From positions 5,068,322 through 5,132,321 of the forward strand of contig NZ_CP036273.1 of assembly GCF_007747215.1 (NCBI RefSeq): 64,000 bases of DNA. The letters run 5' to 3'. The position numbers were made by a program, and so were the translations under genes. The stretch comes from Urbifossiella limnaea. Its GTDB lineage: Bacteria; Planctomycetota; Planctomycetia; Gemmatales; Gemmataceae. Each line of letters starts with the position of its first letter. Within the stretch, counting starts at the first letter, position 1. This document shows positions 29,861 to 37,340 of this stretch, one piece after another. The notes below the pieces were generated by a model that was not told the origin of the DNA, ran no database searches, and saw only the letters and a program-made list of their open reading frames with translations.

Positions 29861-29953
29861 TCTCGAATTATTCTCGGCTGCGTCGTTGACGACCGCCGCA
29901 GCCGGCGGGTACGCTCTCCACTACCGACCCACCCCCACGCCGGAGCCGACACC

Positions 29954-30304
29954 ATGGCACCCTCCGACCGCCGCCGGTTCCTCAAGGACATGCTCGGCAC
30001 GCTGGCCGGGGCCGCCGGCACCGTGGTCCTCGCCTCCACCGCGACCGGGCAGGAAGCCGCGACCCCGCCCGCGGCGCCGGCCGACGACATCCAGGACCGG
30101 GCCGACCGGATCGCCGGCGCGGCCGGGGCGACCGAGGAAGAAGTTTCGGTGCAGGCGTTCGTCAACGGCGCGTTCCGCAACGCCGTCGGCGGCGGGTTCC
30201 GCAACGGCGGGTTCGCGAACGGGTTCGGCGGCGGGTTCCGCAACGGCTCCTTCCGCAACGGGGTCAGCGGCGGGTTCCGCAACGGCGCCTTCCGCAACTG
30301 GTGA
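29954..30304 (+). CDS. Tat-signal RiPP precursor with eight FxN motifs (GrrA-like)
   Basis: A 116-residue precursor peptide. The N-terminus is a twin-arginine signal (SDRRRFLKDMLGTLAGAAG, matching RRxFLK, with a cleavage-like ASTATGQ). The middle (about 35-67) is an acidic, Ala-rich leader. The C-terminal core is a Gly-rich repeat with eight Phe-x-Asn motifs: F69, F74, F82, F87, F95, F100, F108 and F113 are each followed by x-Asn, most as FRN. Gly-rich cores with aromatic-x-Asn units next to a radical SAM/SPASM enzyme are the pattern of GrrA-type and related triceptide precursors, where the enzyme links the aromatic ring to the Asn beta-carbon as a cyclophane. The start at 29954 gives the Tat signal directly. 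The gene next to it encodes the likely maturase. Confidence 0.78.
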   Translation: MAPSDRRRFLKDMLGTLAGAAGTVVLASTATGQEAATPPAAPADDIQDRADRIAGAAGATEEEVSVQAFVNGAFRNAVGGGFRNGGFANGFGGGFRNGSFRNGVSGGFRNGAFRNW

Positions 30305-30321
30305 GCCGGGGCCCCGCCCCC

Positions 30322-30326
30322 GGAGG
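30322..30326 (+). promoter_or_regulatory. ribosome binding site of the radical SAM gene
   Basis: GGAGG, seven bases before ATG at 30334. It decides between that ATG and a GTG at 30301 that would overlap the precursor stop. Confidence 0.6.
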
Positions 30327-30333
30327 CCGCGCC

Positions 30334-31506
30334 ATGTCCGACACCCAACCGCCGGCCGCCCGCGGCGGCGCGGGGCCGCTCGAACTCCTCGTCGTCCAGC
30401 CCACCCCGTTCTGCAACCTCGACTGCTCGTACTGCTACCTGCCCGACCGCGCCGACACCCGGCGCATGTCGCTCGACACCCTGGACCAGGCGTTCCGCTG
30501 GGTCGCGGCCAGCGGGCTGGTCCGCGAGCCCTTCGCCCTCCTGTGGCACGCCGGCGAGCCGCTCGTCGCCCCGATCGCGTGGTACGAGGCGGCCGCCGAC
30601 CTGCTCCGCCGCCGCGGCCCGGACTGGGAGGTGACGCAGGCGGTCCAGACGAACGCCACGCTGATCACCGCGGAGTGGTGCGACTACTTCCGCCGCTACG
30701 GGATCGACGTCGGCGTGAGCATCGACGGGCCGGCGTTCCTCCACGACCGCCACCGCCGCACCCGCCGGGGCGGCGGCACCCTCGACCGGGTGCTGGCCGG
30801 GGTCCGCCTGCTGCGGGAGCACGAGGTCCCGTTCAAGGTCATCACCGTGCTCACCGCCGCCGCGCTCGACTACCCGGACGAGCTGTTCGACTTCTACCGG
30901 GCGCACGGCGTGCGGTCGGTCGGGTTCAACCCGGAGGAGGTGGAGGGGCCGAACACCACGTCGTCGCTCCAGGCGGAGGGGACGGAGCCGCGGTTCCGGC
31001 GGTTCCTGGCCCGGTTCGTCGACCTGGCGCGGGCCGCCGATCCGCCGATCGAGGTCCGCGAGTTCGAGCTGTCGGCCGCCGCCATCCTCCACGCCCGCCG
31101 CGCCGGGCCGCCCCGCCGTACGCAGGAGAACCGGCCGTTCGGCGTCGTCAACGTGGACTGCGCCGGCAACTTCAGCACCTTCTCCCCGGAGCTGCTCGGG
31201 CTCGACAGCCCGCGTTACGGGGCGTTCGCCCTGGGGAACGTGGCGACCGACCCGCTCGACGCCGTGCTGGCGTCGCCGCGGTTCGCGCGGATGGAGGCGG
31301 AGGTCGCCGCCGGGGTGGCGATGTGCCGGGCGGAGTGCCGCTACTTCCCGTTCTGCGGGGGCGGGCCGCCGGGGAACAAGCACTTCGAGGCCGGCACCTT
31401 CGCCGCCACCGAGACGCTGTTCTGCCGGCTGCACGTGAAGGCCTGCCTGGACGTGACGGCGGACCGGATGGAACGCCACCCGCCGGCCGAGCGGGCGGCG
31501 CCATGA
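30334..31506 (+). CDS. radical SAM/SPASM peptide maturase (GrrM-like)
   Basis: A 390-residue radical SAM enzyme. The cluster motif is C27-x3-C31-x2-C34 in QPTPFCNLDCSYCYLP; the SAM-fold continues with LLWHAGEPLV and QTNATLIT, SIDGPAFLHDRHRRTRRGGG and FKVITVLTAAA. The C-terminus has a SPASM-type Cys set: NVDCAGNFSTFSPELLG, then MCRAECRYFPFCGGGPPGNK and later LFCRLHVKACLDV, for extra iron-sulfur clusters. This layout is that of RiPP maturases of the GrrM and related cyclophane-forming group. It is preceded by the FxN precursor and its stop overlaps the next gene by four bases, so the three form one operon. It should act in the cytoplasm, before Tat export of the folded product; that is inference. 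Confidence 0.85.
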   Translation: MSDTQPPAARGGAGPLELLVVQPTPFCNLDCSYCYLPDRADTRRMSLDTLDQAFRWVAASGLVREPFALLWHAGEPLVAPIAWYEAAADLLRRRGPDWEVTQAVQTNATLITAEWCDYFRRYGIDVGVSIDGPAFLHDRHRRTRRGGGTLDRVLAGVRLLREHEVPFKVITVLTAAALDYPDELFDFYRAHGVRSVGFNPEEVEGPNTTSSLQAEGTEPRFRRFLARFVDLARAADPPIEVREFELSAAAILHARRAGPPRRTQENRPFGVVNVDCAGNFSTFSPELLGLDSPRYGAFALGNVATDPLDAVLASPRFARMEAEVAAGVAMCRAECRYFPFCGGGPPGNKHFEAGTFAATETLFCRLHVKACLDVTADRMERHPPAERAAP

Positions 31507-32351
31507 CCCTCCTCCCCGGCTGCCGCGTCGCGGTCGCGGCGCGGTTCCACCTCGCCGCCGACTGGCCCGCCCGGCTCACGCTCGGGGCCGGGACCGACGA
31601 GGCCGACGGCCGGTTCTTCCCCCGCGGGCCGTGGCGTGCCCCGACGGCTCAGGAACTCGCGCTGCTGGTCGCGGCGGACGCGCCCGGCCGCTCCCTCCCG
31701 CTGCTCGGGGAGCCGGACCCGCCCCCGGCCGACGCCCCCGACACGCCAGACACGCTCGGCCTGTTTCAACTCCCGGACCATTTGCGGGAGGCGTGGTGGG
31801 ACCTGCTCGACGCGGCCGCCGGGGACGGCGGCGGGGTGCGCGGGTTCGACGGCTTCGCCGCGCGGGTGGGTGAGTTCCTGGGCTTCAAGCGGCTGGGACT
31901 CCCCGCCGCCGCGGGGATGGAGGCGATCGTGACCGCGGCCGGGGAGCGGTCGATCCGCCGCGACCCCGACACTGGCCGGCCGTCGGGCCTGGGCCCGACG
32001 GTGGCGGCGTGGGCCGCCTGGCCACCGAACGCCGGGCGCTCGCCGCCGCGCCTCTGGGGCGTCGTCAACCTCGGGGACGAACCCTCCGGCGTGGTCCTGG
32101 TCAACCTCTCGCTGCCGGACCTCGCAGCCGCCCTCGCGTCGAGGGAACCCGACGCGCCCCCGGCGACGGTCGGCGAGTTGGTCGCGCGGTTCCTGCGAGC
32201 GTTCCCGGACTACCCGCCCGTCCGCGTCGCCCTCGGCTCGGGCGAGGGTTGCCGCGTCCCACCGGGCGGGCTGGTCCTCGACGGCGACCCGACCGGGAAG
32301 CGGGACCCCGACATGCTGCTGCTTATTTCCGACCCCCGGGTCGGGGACTGA
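31503..32351 (+). CDS. unknown RiPP-locus protein, 282 aa
   Basis: I do not recognise a family. The ATG overlaps the stop of the radical SAM gene (ATGA), so it is translationally coupled and likely part of the same pathway. The protein is soluble, without signal or membrane segment. It has an N-terminal domain (VAVAARFHLAADWPARLTLG, then a Pro-rich patch) and a C-terminal domain starting about residue 170 with LWGVVNLGDEPSGVVLVNLS and ending VRVALGSGEGCRVPPGGLVL, then a DGDPTGK-RDPDMLLLI run. That last part has a cupin-like rhythm of short strands and Gly/Pro turns, so a modifying or binding role is possible. This is the unexplained member of the locus. Confidence 0.6.
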   Translation: MTLLPGCRVAVAARFHLAADWPARLTLGAGTDEADGRFFPRGPWRAPTAQELALLVAADAPGRSLPLLGEPDPPPADAPDTPDTLGLFQLPDHLREAWWDLLDAAAGDGGGVRGFDGFAARVGEFLGFKRLGLPAAAGMEAIVTAAGERSIRRDPDTGRPSGLGPTVAAWAAWPPNAGRSPPRLWGVVNLGDEPSGVVLVNLSLPDLAAALASREPDAPPATVGELVARFLRAFPDYPPVRVALGSGEGCRVPPGGLVLDGDPTGKRDPDMLLLISDPRVGD

Positions 32352-32396: not shown

Positions 32397-32795
32397 GTGG
32401 CCGAGGCGCGGTCAACCGCGGTCCGCGTGGCCGACATCACCGACGGGGCCAGCAACACCCTCGCCGCCGGCGAGCGGCCGCCGAGCCCGGACATGTGGGT
32501 CGGGTGGTGGTACGCCGGCTACGGCGTGGACTTCAGCGGCACCGCCGACACGGTGCTCGGCGTGCGCGAGCGGGCCAGCCCCGACTACCCGCAGATGCCC
32601 GACTGCGGCCCGGGGTCCACGTCGTTCCGGCCTGGCGCCCTAACCTCGTGGTGCGACGTGATGCACTACTGGAGTACGCATCCGGGCGGCGGCAACTTCC
32701 TGTTCGCCGACGGGGCCGTGCGCTTCCTGCCGTACTCGGCGGCGGAGGTGATGCCGGCGCTCGCCGCCCGCGAGGCGGCGGGGCCGCCGGAGTAG
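32397..32795 (+). pseudogene. truncated DUF1559 prepilin-like gene (C-terminal half)
   Basis: The frame encodes 132 residues that match only the end of DUF1559 proteins: VRVADITDGASNTLAAGE, YPQMPDCGPGSTSFRP and the closing H-x9-DG motif in THPGGGNFLFADGAVRFLPY. The complete family (see 62896) starts with a prepilin signal [16 protein letters not shown], absent here; the upstream 45 bp do not restore it, and only a GTG is available as start. It is therefore a 5'-deleted copy, left directly behind the RiPP operon. Expression is unlikely. Confidence 0.75.
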
Positions 32796-32802
32796 CCTCA
32801 CG

Positions 32803-33831
32803 TCACTTCTGGTAGATCGGCAGGTAGTGCGTCGGCACGCTGAGGACGAGCACGGCGATGGCCGTCTGGTACACCGGGCCGTACGCCGCCTCGCGGCGGC
32901 TGTCGTACCACTCGCCGCTCGGCCGCTGGCTCCCGAGCAGCTGCGTCCGCATCCGGTTGTAGTACGCCTCCCACTGCTCGCCGCCGATCTGGTTCAGGGC
33001 GTGCGCCGCGTAGTACTCGCCGTACCAGTAGTGCTGCCGGTCCTCGCCCGTCCGCTCCATGTACTCCACCGCCTTCTTGATCTCGTCGGCGTCGAAGTCG
33101 CCGCTGAGTTGCAGCACGCACACGCCGGCCGCCGTGCGGGCGTAGCCGGGGCCGCTGCTGAACGGCTGGTAGCGGTAGCCGCCGGTGCGGCGGTCGTAGC
33201 AGCGGTTGATGTACCGCACCGCCTCGGCGATGGTGCGGTCCGGGACGTGGATGCCGCCGTCCTTCGCCCCGCGGAGGGCCATCACCTGCATGATCGTCAC
33301 CGAGATGTCGGCGCCGGTCGGGGCCGGGTCGTACCGCCACCCGCCCTCGTGGTTCTGCGTCCGCACGATCAGGTCGATGGCCTTCTTCAGCGTCTTGCGG
33401 ACGTCCTCGTCGCCGGTCATGCCGTACACCTGCGACAGCGCGAGCGCGGCCATGCCGTGGCAGTACATGTTGCCGCCGCGGGGGCCGACGACGTAGCCGT
33501 CGTCGCGGGTGCAGGCGAGGAGGTAGCGCACGCCGCGGGCGACCTCGGGGCCGTACTCGCCCTGGTTCGGCAGGTGGCCGTTGGCCATGAACGACAGCAG
33601 GGCGAAGCTGGTGATGGCGGTGTTGCCCCACGAGCCGTCGGCGGCCTGCTGGTCCTTCAGCCAGCGGAGCGACTTGGCGACGGCCTTCTTGGTGGCGTCG
33701 TCCATCTTGACCCGGTCCTTGACCGGGGCGGCGCGGGGCGCCTCGGCCGGCGGCTGGGCGGCGACGGGAGCCGTGGGGGTGTACGTCAGCAGCAGGGCGA
33801 CGGCGGCCGGAAGGAGGTAGAGGCGGCGCAT
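32803..33831 (-). CDS. secreted prenyltransferase/squalene-cyclase-repeat protein
   Basis: A 342-residue protein with signal peptide (LYLLPAAVALLLTYTPTAPVA) followed by an alpha-alpha barrel made of repeats related to squalene-hopene cyclase and prenyltransferase beta units. Repeat cores are seen as LRWLKDQQAADGSWGNTAIT, TQNHEGGWRYDPAPTGADIS and RPSGEWYDSRREAAYGPVYQTAI. The cyclase DxDD catalytic motif is not seen, so it is unlikely to be a cyclase; members of this secreted group are common in planctomycetes and have no known activity. It follows the coiled-coil gene on the same strand after a tandem-repeat region. The end of the gene is 7 bp from the DUF1559 fragment. Confidence 0.8.
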   Translation of the reverse strand: MRRLYLLPAAVALLLTYTPTAPVAAQPPAEAPRAAPVKDRVKMDDATKKAVAKSLRWLKDQQAADGSWGNTAITSFALLSFMANGHLPNQGEYGPEVARGVRYLLACTRDDGYVVGPRGGNMYCHGMAALALSQVYGMTGDEDVRKTLKKAIDLIVRTQNHEGGWRYDPAPTGADISVTIMQVMALRGAKDGGIHVPDRTIAEAVRYINRCYDRRTGGYRYQPFSSGPGYARTAAGVCVLQLSGDFDADEIKKAVEYMERTGEDRQHYWYGEYYAAHALNQIGGEQWEAYYNRMRTQLLGSQRPSGEWYDSRREAAYGPVYQTAIAVLVLSVPTHYLPIYQK

Positions 33832-33935: not shown

Positions 33936-36900
33936 CTAAGGGCGGGTCGGCACCGGTGTGGGGGCCGGGGCGGTGGGACGGTTGTTCTTCACGTTGATGT
34001 TGTACTGCCGGATCAGCTCGCGGAACTCGGCGGGGAACTGGGCCTCGCCGGCCTGCTGGACGCTGTCGCGCTCCCGCTTGCGGAGGTGGATGAACGCCCC
34101 GTCGCCACTCTGGGCGGTGCCACCCGAGGCCTTGTTGCGGAGCTTCTCGTCGCCGTCCTTGTCGCCCTCGGAGACGCCGGCGTTCTGCGGCTCGCCCTTG
34201 CCCGGCTCCTTGCCCGGCTGCATCCCGGGTTGCATGCCCATCCCCATGCCCATCCCCTTCGCCATGCCCATGCCGGGCTGCATCCCCATGCCCATACCGG
34301 GCTGCATCCCCATGCCCATGCCGGGCTGCATGCCGGCCGTCGCCATCGGCATCTGACCGGGTTGCGTGCCCATCATGCCGTTGGCCATCGCCGCGGCGTT
34401 GAGGGCGTTGAGCGCCTGTTGCAGGGCGTCGGCGGCGGCCATCTGGTTCATGCCGGCCTGCATCGGCTGGCCCATGCCGAGCTTCTCGCCGGCCATACCG
34501 AGCTGCTCGCCGGCCATGCCGATCTGCCCCTGCACCGACATGGGGGCCTGGGCCTGGGCCTGGGCCAGTGCCGCCTGCGCGGCCTGGTTCGCCATCTGCG
34601 ACTGCTGCAGCGCCTTGGTGGCGTCGATTAGCTTCTCCTGCGTCTTCGCGATCTCGCCGGGCGAAGGCATGCCGCTCGGCATCATGCCACCGGGCATTCC
34701 GCCCATCGGCATGCCGTCCTTGGGCATTCCACCCATCGGCATGCCGTCCTTCGGCTGGCCGTCTTTGGGCTGGCCGTCCTTCGGCTGGCCGTCTTTGGGC
34801 TGGCCGTCCTTCGGCATACCCTCCATCGGCATGCCGGCCATCGGCTGGCCGTCCTTCGGCATCGCCTGGGCGGCCTGTTTGAGTGCGTCGAGCGCCTTCT
34901 GCTGGTTCTCGAGGGCTCCCATGAGGTCGCCCTTGTCGAGCGCCTTGGCGGCGTCGTTGGCGGCCTTGGCGGCATCGCTCTGCTTCGCGTCGGCGGCCTG
35001 CTTGGCGACCTGCTTCTGCAGGTCGGCGAGGTTCGGCGGCATCGGCATCGCGTCCTGCGGCATGCCGTTCATCGGCGGCATGTTCCCCTTGTCGGCCGTG
35101 GGCTGCATCCCCGCCATCGGCTGCGGCGGGAGCGCCTTCGCGGCCTCGTTCGCGGCCTCGGCGGCCTTGTTGGCGTTCTCCAGCGCCTTGGCGAGGTTCT
35201 GGGCGGCGGCCATCGGGTCCGTGTTGTTCGGCATCAGCGCGGCCTGGTCGTTGGCCTCCATGCCGCGCTTGTCGGCGAGGGCCATGTCCACGGCCTTGGC
35301 GGCCTCGGCAAGCTTCATCGCGGCGTCGGCGGCCTTTTCGGCGCCGGCCTTCGGGTCGTTCTTCGCCAGGTCCTTCTTGGCGCCCTCCTGCTTCATGCCG
35401 GCCTCGTCCACCTTCTTGGCGGCCTCGGGGGCGGCGTCCTTGAGCTTCTCGCCGACCTCCTTCGTGGGCGGCTGGAGCATCGCCTGCTCGTCGGCGAGCT
35501 TGCCCGTGTCCGGCATCTTGGCCCCGTCGGGCGGCATCTTCGGATCACCCGCCTTCGGGTCGCCCATCTTCGGGTCGCCCATCTTCGGGTCGCCCATCTT
35601 CGGGTCACCCGCCTTCGGGTCACCCGCCTTCGGGTCACCCGCCTTCGGGTCGGGCATCCCGGCCATCGGGTCGCCCTTCTTCGGCTCGGCCTTGTCGGCG
35701 GCCTGCTTGGCGTCATTGGCGAGTTGCTTCTCTGCGGCAGCCAGCTTCTCCAGGTCGCGCTTGGCGTCCTCCAGCTTGGCGATGTCGTCGCGCCGCTGCT
35801 CGATCGCCGCGGCCTGCTTGTCGAGCGCCGCCTTGGCCATCTCCAGGTTGCGAATCGCGTCCTTCTGGTCCGGCTGGGCCTCGGCCGGGTTCTTCATGTC
35901 GAGGTCGGCCTTGGCCTCCTTCGTGGCGGCGGCGGCCATGTCGAGTGCCTGCTTGGCCTCCGTGTTGGGCGGCAGCGGCGTGTTCTTCAGGGCGTCGGCC
36001 TTCTTCGTCACGTCGGCCTGCTTGGCGGTCGCCTCGGGAAGCTTCGCGTTCTGCTTCTCGGCCTCCTTCGTGGCGGCCTGCGCCTCCTTCTGCTCCTGGA
36101 TCAGCTTCTCGATCTGCTCGCTGGCGGTCTTCACGGCGGCGAGCGGGTCGCGCTTGGCGAGCTCGGCGGCGGCGATGCGGCGGTCGAGTTCCTCGCGGGC
36201 GTTCCGGAGCGCGTCGACGGCCTTCTCCTGGGCCTCCTTGGCCGGGTCGGCCTTCTGCGCCCGCAGCTTGTCCTCGGCCTGCCACTGGTTCTCCTCGGCC
36301 TGCTTCCGCAGCCCCTCGGCCACCTCGGGGGCGACCTGTTCGGTCTGCCGGCGGGCGTCGCGGGCGGTCAGCGTGGCGCGGGCCTGCGCGGCGGCCAGGG
36401 CCTGCGCCTTGTCCTGCCGGGCGTCGGGGGTGTTGGCCCGGCGGTCGTCCGGGTCGGCCTTCTTCGCCGTGTCCTCGTTCAGCTTCTCCTGCTCCTTCAG
36501 GGCGGCGTCCACCTTGTCGCGGGCGGCGCGGAGCGGGTCGGTCGGCGGCTGCCGCAGCGCGGCGGCCAGGTCCTTCAGCTCGTTGGCGTGCTTCCGCTCG
36601 CGCTCGGCCGCCTCGCTCGTGGCGTCCTGCTTGAGGATGCGGGTGGTGAACGTCATCTCGGAGCCGAGCTTGGCGCCGCGGGCCTTCACGTCGGCCTTGT
36701 CGGCCCGCTCCTTCTCGGCGGGCGTCATGCTCGGGAGGAGCTTGTCGATCTGGCGGAACACTTCCGCGACCTCGGCCCCGAGCTGGGCCTGCTTGTCGGC
36801 CACGTCGTCGCGGTCCACGGCGAGCTCGCGGGGGGTGCGGCCGGGGCGCCGGGCCACGAGGTTGCTCTGCGTGTCCTTGTACACGTCGAGTTGCTCGGAG

Positions 36901-37340
36901 GCGGCGCGGTCGAGCCGGGCGGCGGCCTCGTTCAGGTTGCGGATCAGTTCGAGCCGCACGAGCATGCCGCGGAGCTGGGCCACCACCTCGCGGTGCTTGT
37001 CGTACGCCCGCACCTGCTCGGCCGACGCCTTCTCCTGGTCCGGGGCGGCGACGGCCGCTTCGAGGTGGGCGATGATGGCCTGGATCTCGGTCTGGCTGAG
37101 CCCCTTCAAGGAGTCGGCCACGTCCTCGATCATCTTCCGCTCGGCGGACGGCGACAGCCGCTGGTAGATCATGGCGTCGATGGTGGACGACGCCCGGCGG
37201 GAGGCGTCGGCGACGCGGGCCTGCACCTTCTTCTGCTCGTCGCGCTGCTTCGCGGCGTCGTTCCCCTTCGAGGCGAGGCCGACGACGAGGGTGAGCAGGA
37301 GGGCCGCGACCGGGAGTTGCAACCAGCGACCGGCGGGCAT
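33936..37340 (-). CDS. giant coiled-coil, Lys/Ala/Met-rich exported protein
   Basis: An 1134-residue protein with an N-terminal signal anchor (LQLPVAALLLTLVVGLASKG), then about 1000 residues of long charged helices typical of coiled coils (KQRDEQKKVQARVADASRRA, DAIRNLEMAKAALDKQAAAI). The middle has tandem GDPKM/GDPKA units (35536-35650). The C-terminal half is Met/Pro/Gly-rich with MPKDGQPKDGQ units (34744-34815) and MGMGMQPGMG stretches. The end (RQYNINVKNNRPTAPAPTPV) is again Pro-rich. No enzyme motif. It is probably a structural or scaffold protein of the cell envelope. Composition makes exact homology calls unreliable. It precedes a cyclase-repeat gene on the same strand. Confidence 0.7.
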   Translation of the reverse strand: MPAGRWLQLPVAALLLTLVVGLASKGNDAAKQRDEQKKVQARVADASRRASSTIDAMIYQRLSPSAERKMIEDVADSLKGLSQTEIQAIIAHLEAAVAAPDQEKASAEQVRAYDKHREVVAQLRGMLVRLELIRNLNEAAARLDRAASEQLDVYKDTQSNLVARRPGRTPRELAVDRDDVADKQAQLGAEVAEVFRQIDKLLPSMTPAEKERADKADVKARGAKLGSEMTFTTRILKQDATSEAAERERKHANELKDLAAALRQPPTDPLRAARDKVDAALKEQEKLNEDTAKKADPDDRRANTPDARQDKAQALAAAQARATLTARDARRQTEQVAPEVAEGLRKQAEENQWQAEDKLRAQKADPAKEAQEKAVDALRNAREELDRRIAAAELAKRDPLAAVKTASEQIEKLIQEQKEAQAATKEAEKQNAKLPEATAKQADVTKKADALKNTPLPPNTEAKQALDMAAAATKEAKADLDMKNPAEAQPDQKDAIRNLEMAKAALDKQAAAIEQRRDDIAKLEDAKRDLEKLAAAEKQLANDAKQAADKAEPKKGDPMAGMPDPKAGDPKAGDPKAGDPKMGDPKMGDPKMGDPKAGDPKMPPDGAKMPDTGKLADEQAMLQPPTKEVGEKLKDAAPEAAKKVDEAGMKQEGAKKDLAKNDPKAGAEKAADAAMKLAEAAKAVDMALADKRGMEANDQAALMPNNTDPMAAAQNLAKALENANKAAEAANEAAKALPPQPMAGMQPTADKGNMPPMNGMPQDAMPMPPNLADLQKQVAKQAADAKQSDAAKAANDAAKALDKGDLMGALENQQKALDALKQAAQAMPKDGQPMAGMPMEGMPKDGQPKDGQPKDGQPKDGQPKDGMPMGGMPKDGMPMGGMPGGMMPSGMPSPGEIAKTQEKLIDATKALQQSQMANQAAQAALAQAQAQAPMSVQGQIGMAGEQLGMAGEKLGMGQPMQAGMNQMAAADALQQALNALNAAAMANGMMGTQPGQMPMATAGMQPGMGMGMQPGMGMGMQPGMGMAKGMGMGMGMQPGMQPGKEPGKGEPQNAGVSEGDKDGDEKLRNKASGGTAQSGDGAFIHLRKRERDSVQQAGEAQFPAEFRELIRQYNINVKNNRPTAPAPTPVPTRP
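34744..34815 (-). repeat. 15-nt coding tandem repeat (QPKDG)
   Basis: Nearly five copies of a 15-nt unit, encoding QPKDG on the minus strand, inside the coiled-coil gene. Adjacent units alternate CCGTCCTTCGG and CCGTCTTTGGG, which suggests duplication of a 30-nt pair. Confidence 0.8.
35536..35650 (-). repeat. 15-nt coding tandem repeat (GDPKM/GDPKA)
   Basis: About seven to eight copies of a 15-nt unit read as GDPKM or GDPKA, most identical at DNA level, in the same gene. Length variation between strains is expected. Confidence 0.8.

Follow-up and report, generated by a model that had tools for sequence, protein, structure and literature searches.

A predicted GrrM/OscB-type cyclophane operon in the Gemmataceae with a twin-arginine leader and a MicC-like third gene lacking the iron triad

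An operon of three plus-strand genes in Urbifossiella limnaea, encoding proteins of 116, 390 and 282 aa, very probably produces, as judged from its sequence, a secreted peptide rigidified by as many as eight small rings. The genes occupy positions 29954-32351 of the window, by which we mean the whole 64,000-nucleotide stretch of contig NZ_CP036273.1 that was analyzed. We consider it likely that the locus is a GRRM/OscB-type triceptide operon, that its cross-linked peptide is exported by the Tat pathway, and that its third protein is a partner acting without oxygenase chemistry. The core chemistry is of an already known kind, the enzyme family being known from cyanobacteria; new in the Gemmataceae form are the leader and a pseudo-oxygenase gene in the position occupied at some other grrM loci by an intact MicC-like gene. 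A limited literature search found no paper on planctomycete cyclophanes, on MicC or on peptide systems named GrrM/GrrA, which is weak evidence of novelty.

Gene layout, maturase and precursor

The features of the locus are as follows.

29886-29915, plus strand: candidate promoter TTGACG-N18-TACGCT, read from the alignment with the G020 genome; weak, with 8 of 12 consensus bases, and absent from the scan calls
29954-30304, plus strand: GrrA-type precursor, 116 aa, with eight F-x-N motifs (open reading frame, TIGR04260, homologue alignment)
29966-30046, plus strand: twin arginine (RRRFLK) and hydrophobic stretch, a probable Tat signal (sequence; conserved in four homologues)
30155-30301, plus strand: core peptide, Gly-rich, with eight F-x-N motifs (six FRN) and a C-terminal Trp (motif count)
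30334-31506, plus strand: GrrM/OscB radical SAM/SPASM maturase, predicted to form cyclophanes, 390 aa (TIGR04261, 443.7 bits; Radical_SAM, PF04055)
31503-32351, plus strand: MicC-type 2OG/Fe(II) oxygenase homologue without the HxD...H triad (putative pseudo-oxygenase), 282 aa (profile comparisons and alignment)

All three frames look coding because their third-position GC is 0.93-0.98 and their homologues are conserved in other genera. A promoter-like TTGACG-N18-TACGAT occurs at the matching place in the alignment with G020, the nearest relative; a promoter and terminator scan of the operon region called neither. Directly downstream of the operon, at 32397-32795 (plus strand), lies a C-terminal DUF1559 fragment (PF07596 positions 155-264 of 268) that retains the H-X9-DG motif, lacks the N-terminal part and is probably a truncated remnant. 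On the minus strand, 32803-33831 encodes 342 aa with squalene-hopene cyclase-like repeats scoring under every full-length enzyme cut-off, and 33936-37340 encodes 1134 aa that include GDPKxGDPK and GMPKDGQPKDG repeats of low complexity and a long charged region, probably a coiled coil.

The maturase matched the full GrrM/OscB model TIGR04261 (positions 1-363) at 443.7 bits against a cut-off of 310, and Pfam Radical_SAM was also above its cut-off. The multiple-cyclophane AmcA/AmcB system provided the second-best model (AmcB, NF041718, 313.5 bits), yet its cut-off of 425 was not reached. Scores were far lower with the three-residue cyclophane formers XncB/XyeB, MscB/FxsB and YhhB, which carry out the same type of reaction (PMC11002830): 111 bits for FxsB (cut-off 370), 125 for YhhB (445) and 65 for XyeB (450). 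Further GRRM-system models gave no match among the six proteins scanned. The cysteines C27-x3-C31-x2-C34 and C331-x3-C335-x5-C341...C364 are invariant in six aligned GrrM proteins, although the Pfam SPASM model itself stayed below threshold (14.0 versus 21.5 bits).

The earlier note had described a radical SAM/SPASM enzyme with these motif cysteines, a precursor with eight Phe-x-Asn motifs in a Gly-rich core and a third, overlapping gene in one compact operon, and each part was confirmed, the grrM stop and the third-gene start overlapping as ATGA. The precursor passed the GrrA/OscA1 model TIGR04260 narrowly, at 33.2 bits against a cut-off of 31; the precursors of the G030 and G051 genomes were not detected by this model. 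Weak sub-threshold matches to it were also seen in three Gemmataceae genomes without GrrM (G055, G047 and G041; loci L052-L054). The motifs of the window precursor are FVN69, FRN74, FRN82, FAN87, FRN95, FRN100, FRN108 and FRN113, six of the eight being FRN, and they take up all but one (F91) of the nine phenylalanines in the 49-residue core. Shuffling this core 200,000 times never produced eight F-x-N motifs, the maximum being seven.

OscB (IPR026357) is reported to join Phe C4 to the Asn C-beta between residues i and i+2, and likewise Trp C7 to the C-beta of Asn or Asp (review PMC11002830). The first of these reactions takes place on F-x-N-type motifs and supports the cyclophane reading of the window locus. 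The locus resembles the GrrA/GrrM (OscA/OscB) system in passing both family cut-offs, in its Gly-rich core with repeated Aro-x-Asn and in its short operon; it differs in its planctomycete host, Arg-rich FRN motifs, twin-arginine leader and degenerate MicC-type third gene. Were the radical SAM enzyme instead of the sulfatase-maturase kind and the Gly-rich protein a structural repeat protein, the locus would make no RiPP. The sulfatase maturase model TIGR03942 does match the enzyme at 151 bits, though far below its cut-off of 349, and the GrrM model is ahead by almost 300 bits. F-x-N precursors moreover adjoin grrM at all four Gemmataceae loci and Aro-x-N precursors occur at other loci of the phylum; a non-RiPP locus is extremely unlikely.

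Relatives and the twin-arginine leader

GrrM was found above cut-off in four of 95 Gemmataceae genomes, in three of 392 genomes sampled from the phylum (the window's genome counted in) and in none of five congeners of the window's organism. The other Gemmataceae enzymes are 78% (G020), 67% (G030) and 63% (G051) identical to that of the window, and upstream of each gene lies a precursor that combines a twin-arginine leader with an F-x-N core. The whole three-gene operon is present in G020 and G030, and precursor and grrM in G051. The GrrM-like, cyclophane-type RiPP locus proposed in the earlier note is thus supported by the two family cut-offs, the reported OscB chemistry and this recurrence of the gene pair. 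Elsewhere in the phylum, two loci (G138 and G158) have W-x-N-type precursors with ordinary signal-like N-termini. In the GrrM tree the four Gemmataceae proteins lie on one side of a branch with a support of 74/95, which is not strong. Because its occurrence is rare and patchy, horizontal spread or repeated loss of the system is suggested. In Phaeobacter piscinae (L045, 4980-7182) grrM sits on conjugative plasmids together with a W-x-N precursor and an uncharacterized, secreted-looking 220-aa protein, and it has the same position on three P. inhibens plasmids. Two IMG/VR loci filed as viral (L029 and L030) hold a GrrM-like gene, 43% identical, among neighbors that look bacterial.

The leaders of the four Gemmataceae precursors read DRRRFLKDML, DRRRFLKGIL, NRRQLLQNLL and NRRELLKGIL, each followed by a hydrophobic stretch, and share the motif [DN]RRx[FL]L. 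Start codons agree at the four loci (Met, a few residues, twin arginine), the spacing between Met and the twin arginine being identical. TatC is encoded in all four genomes. The sequence features of a Tat substrate, an RRxFLK-type motif, a hydrophobic stretch and a Tat translocase in the genome, are all present for the window precursor and suggest that the cross-linked peptide is exported by Tat, a route that would fit a folded, cross-linked product. Alternatively, the RR motif may function in recognition of the leader. The sole literature match for Tat together with RiPPs was unrelated.

The third gene as a MicC-type homologue without iron ligands

The third gene had no match in Pfam or NCBIfam. 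A profile of its three members retrieved one PDB entry, 9vkm (E 5e-6), which is MicC, an alpha-ketoglutarate-dependent non-heme iron oxygenase. When the Gemmataceae set was compared by hhalign with three intact MicC-like proteins, the probability was 98.2 (E 3.6e-14), and an intact MicC-like profile searched against whole genomes recovered the genes of the window (9.6e-8) and of G020 (5.6e-9). The homology to MicC and to the MicC-like genes of Nostoc and Streptomyces covers the C-terminal half in HMMER and columns 33-278 in hhalign. The fold was inferred from sequence profiles because the AlphaFold model, built from only three sequences, came out at pLDDT 36. On the evidence of these profiles the third gene is distantly homologous to the MicC-type 2OG/Fe(II) oxygenases.

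A genome-contig scan with the single third protein found no match, and one with the third-protein alignment returned only two loci, both already known. The MicC-like search of viral contigs, phages and the phylum found no convincing relative besides the window's own gene; a match in G370 was rejected since it was only partial and outside the triad region. Intact MicC-like genes occur beside grrM in two plasmids. In Nostoc sp. TCL26-01 (L043) a possible precursor is followed by grrM and a hypothetical protein that matches MicC at E 1.3e-28, and in Streptomyces sp. ADI95-16 (L044) a hypothetical protein placed in the MicC-like set by alignment precedes grrM. The Streptomyces genes (604564-617661) lie among those for a LanC-like protein, a lantibiotic dehydratase and a thiopeptide-type biosynthesis protein, possibly as a mixed RiPP cluster. 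No annotated grrM adjoins the MicC-like genes of Methylocystis parvus (L046) and Streptomyces NBC_01454 (L049); the former, on a plasmid (12960-25400), is surrounded by genes for TonB receptors and an iron ABC transporter and by a nitrogenase-component-1-like gene.

The usual facial triad of such oxygenases is HxD...H. An H-x-D and a later H within HDG are present in all four of these intact relatives, and the triad is absent from all four Gemmataceae proteins. At the distal histidine, where the alignment is gap-free, N-I-I-H-D-G (Nostoc, MicC) is replaced by G-L-V-L-D-G in the window protein and by G-L-I-L-D-G, G-M-I-L-A-G and G-V-P-L-I-G in the others. The proximal motif G-L-H-L-D-S-W corresponds to G-L-G-P-T-V-A-A-W, G-L-G-S-T-I-A-P-W, G-L-R-C-S-V-A-P-W and a deletion, the segment being entirely missing from the G051 protein. 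The alignment has a 2-residue gap here; no HxD occurs anywhere in the region on any alignment. The triad columns read T/A/L, T/A/L, S/A/L and deletion/L, with no histidine at them in the other three Gemmataceae proteins. The only two histidines of the window protein are at positions 16 and 93, and its final 189 residues contain none, which excludes canonical Fe(II) binding independently of any alignment. Unlike MicC and the intact Nostoc and Streptomyces proteins, the Gemmataceae proteins lack both the proximal HxD and the distal His and are therefore unable to coordinate Fe(II) in the usual manner. From these alignments the third protein is of the oxygenase lineage, a degenerate "pseudo-oxygenase," and it is highly likely not to be a canonical iron oxygenase.

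Retention and possible role of the third protein

Among the 95 Gemmataceae genomes, the third gene and GrrM occur in the same four; the remaining 91 yielded no copy of comparable length. The chance of this co-occurrence would be 1 in 3.2 million if genomes were independent, a figure overstated by shared ancestry. Its start overlaps the grrM stop in three genomes; in G051 it is shorter and on a different contig. Because the gene tracks GrrM, overlaps the grrM stop and is more conserved at the first and second codon positions than at the third (0.73 versus 0.44 between the window and G020), a function without iron-oxygenase chemistry is argued. Given the loss of the iron ligands from a gene still kept with grrM, action without oxygenase chemistry appears most likely.

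A functionless, decaying remnant of a MicC oxygenase would explain the missing triad and the shorter, unlinked G051 copy. Its frames are nevertheless full-length in three genera, where the proteins are 46-58% identical and share about 90 invariant positions, which, with the codon-position bias, the preserved start-stop overlap and its retention only alongside grrM, makes decay improbable. It is unlikely that the protein is still an enzyme, metal-free or using other ligands (e.g., H16, H93 and acidic residues), that makes a second modification on the cyclophane peptide. H16 and H93 are conserved without exception in the four Gemmataceae homologues and the intact relatives adjoining grrM are oxygenase-like, but these histidines lie outside the HxD...H columns, in which no ligand is left, and the proximal segment is gone in G051. 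Little credence is given to immunity or self-protection against the finished peptide: the gene co-occurs and is apparently co-transcribed with precursor and maturase, whereas its homology points to a RiPP-associated oxygenase type instead of any known family of immunity proteins, inspection by eye showed neither a membrane segment nor a signal, and nothing indicates that the peptide is toxic.

A peptide- or GrrM-binding role is the simplest, since the precursor would presumably already have been bound by a tailoring enzyme acting in this pathway, and we tentatively favor a partner that holds the precursor or GrrM. GrrM would bind the precursor in the cytoplasm and, by SAM radical chemistry, link the ring of each Phe to the Asn C-beta at position i+2, with the loss of 2 H per motif, giving up to eight rings and a mass change of up to -16.1 Da. 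The stiffened peptide would then be exported from the cytoplasm through the Tat system. The third protein, a presumed descendant of a MicC-type oxygenase minus its iron ligands, may have arisen, as a possibility we put forward with reserve, when a tailoring enzyme of an ancestral GrrM and MicC pathway turned into a dedicated accessory subunit that binds the substrate or couples it to export, the folded cyclophane peptide leaving by Tat.

Taken together, these results extend the OscB/GrrM triceptide class to the Gemmataceae with an eight-motif precursor, and offer RiPP chemists a compact three-gene system for expression. If true, the presence of a Tat-type leader on the precursor of a cyclophane RiPP would connect cross-linking in the cytoplasm with the export of a folded peptide. 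The pseudo-oxygenase, if true, would show a tailoring enzyme recycled as an accessory subunit, which can be compared with the intact Nostoc and Streptomyces genes.
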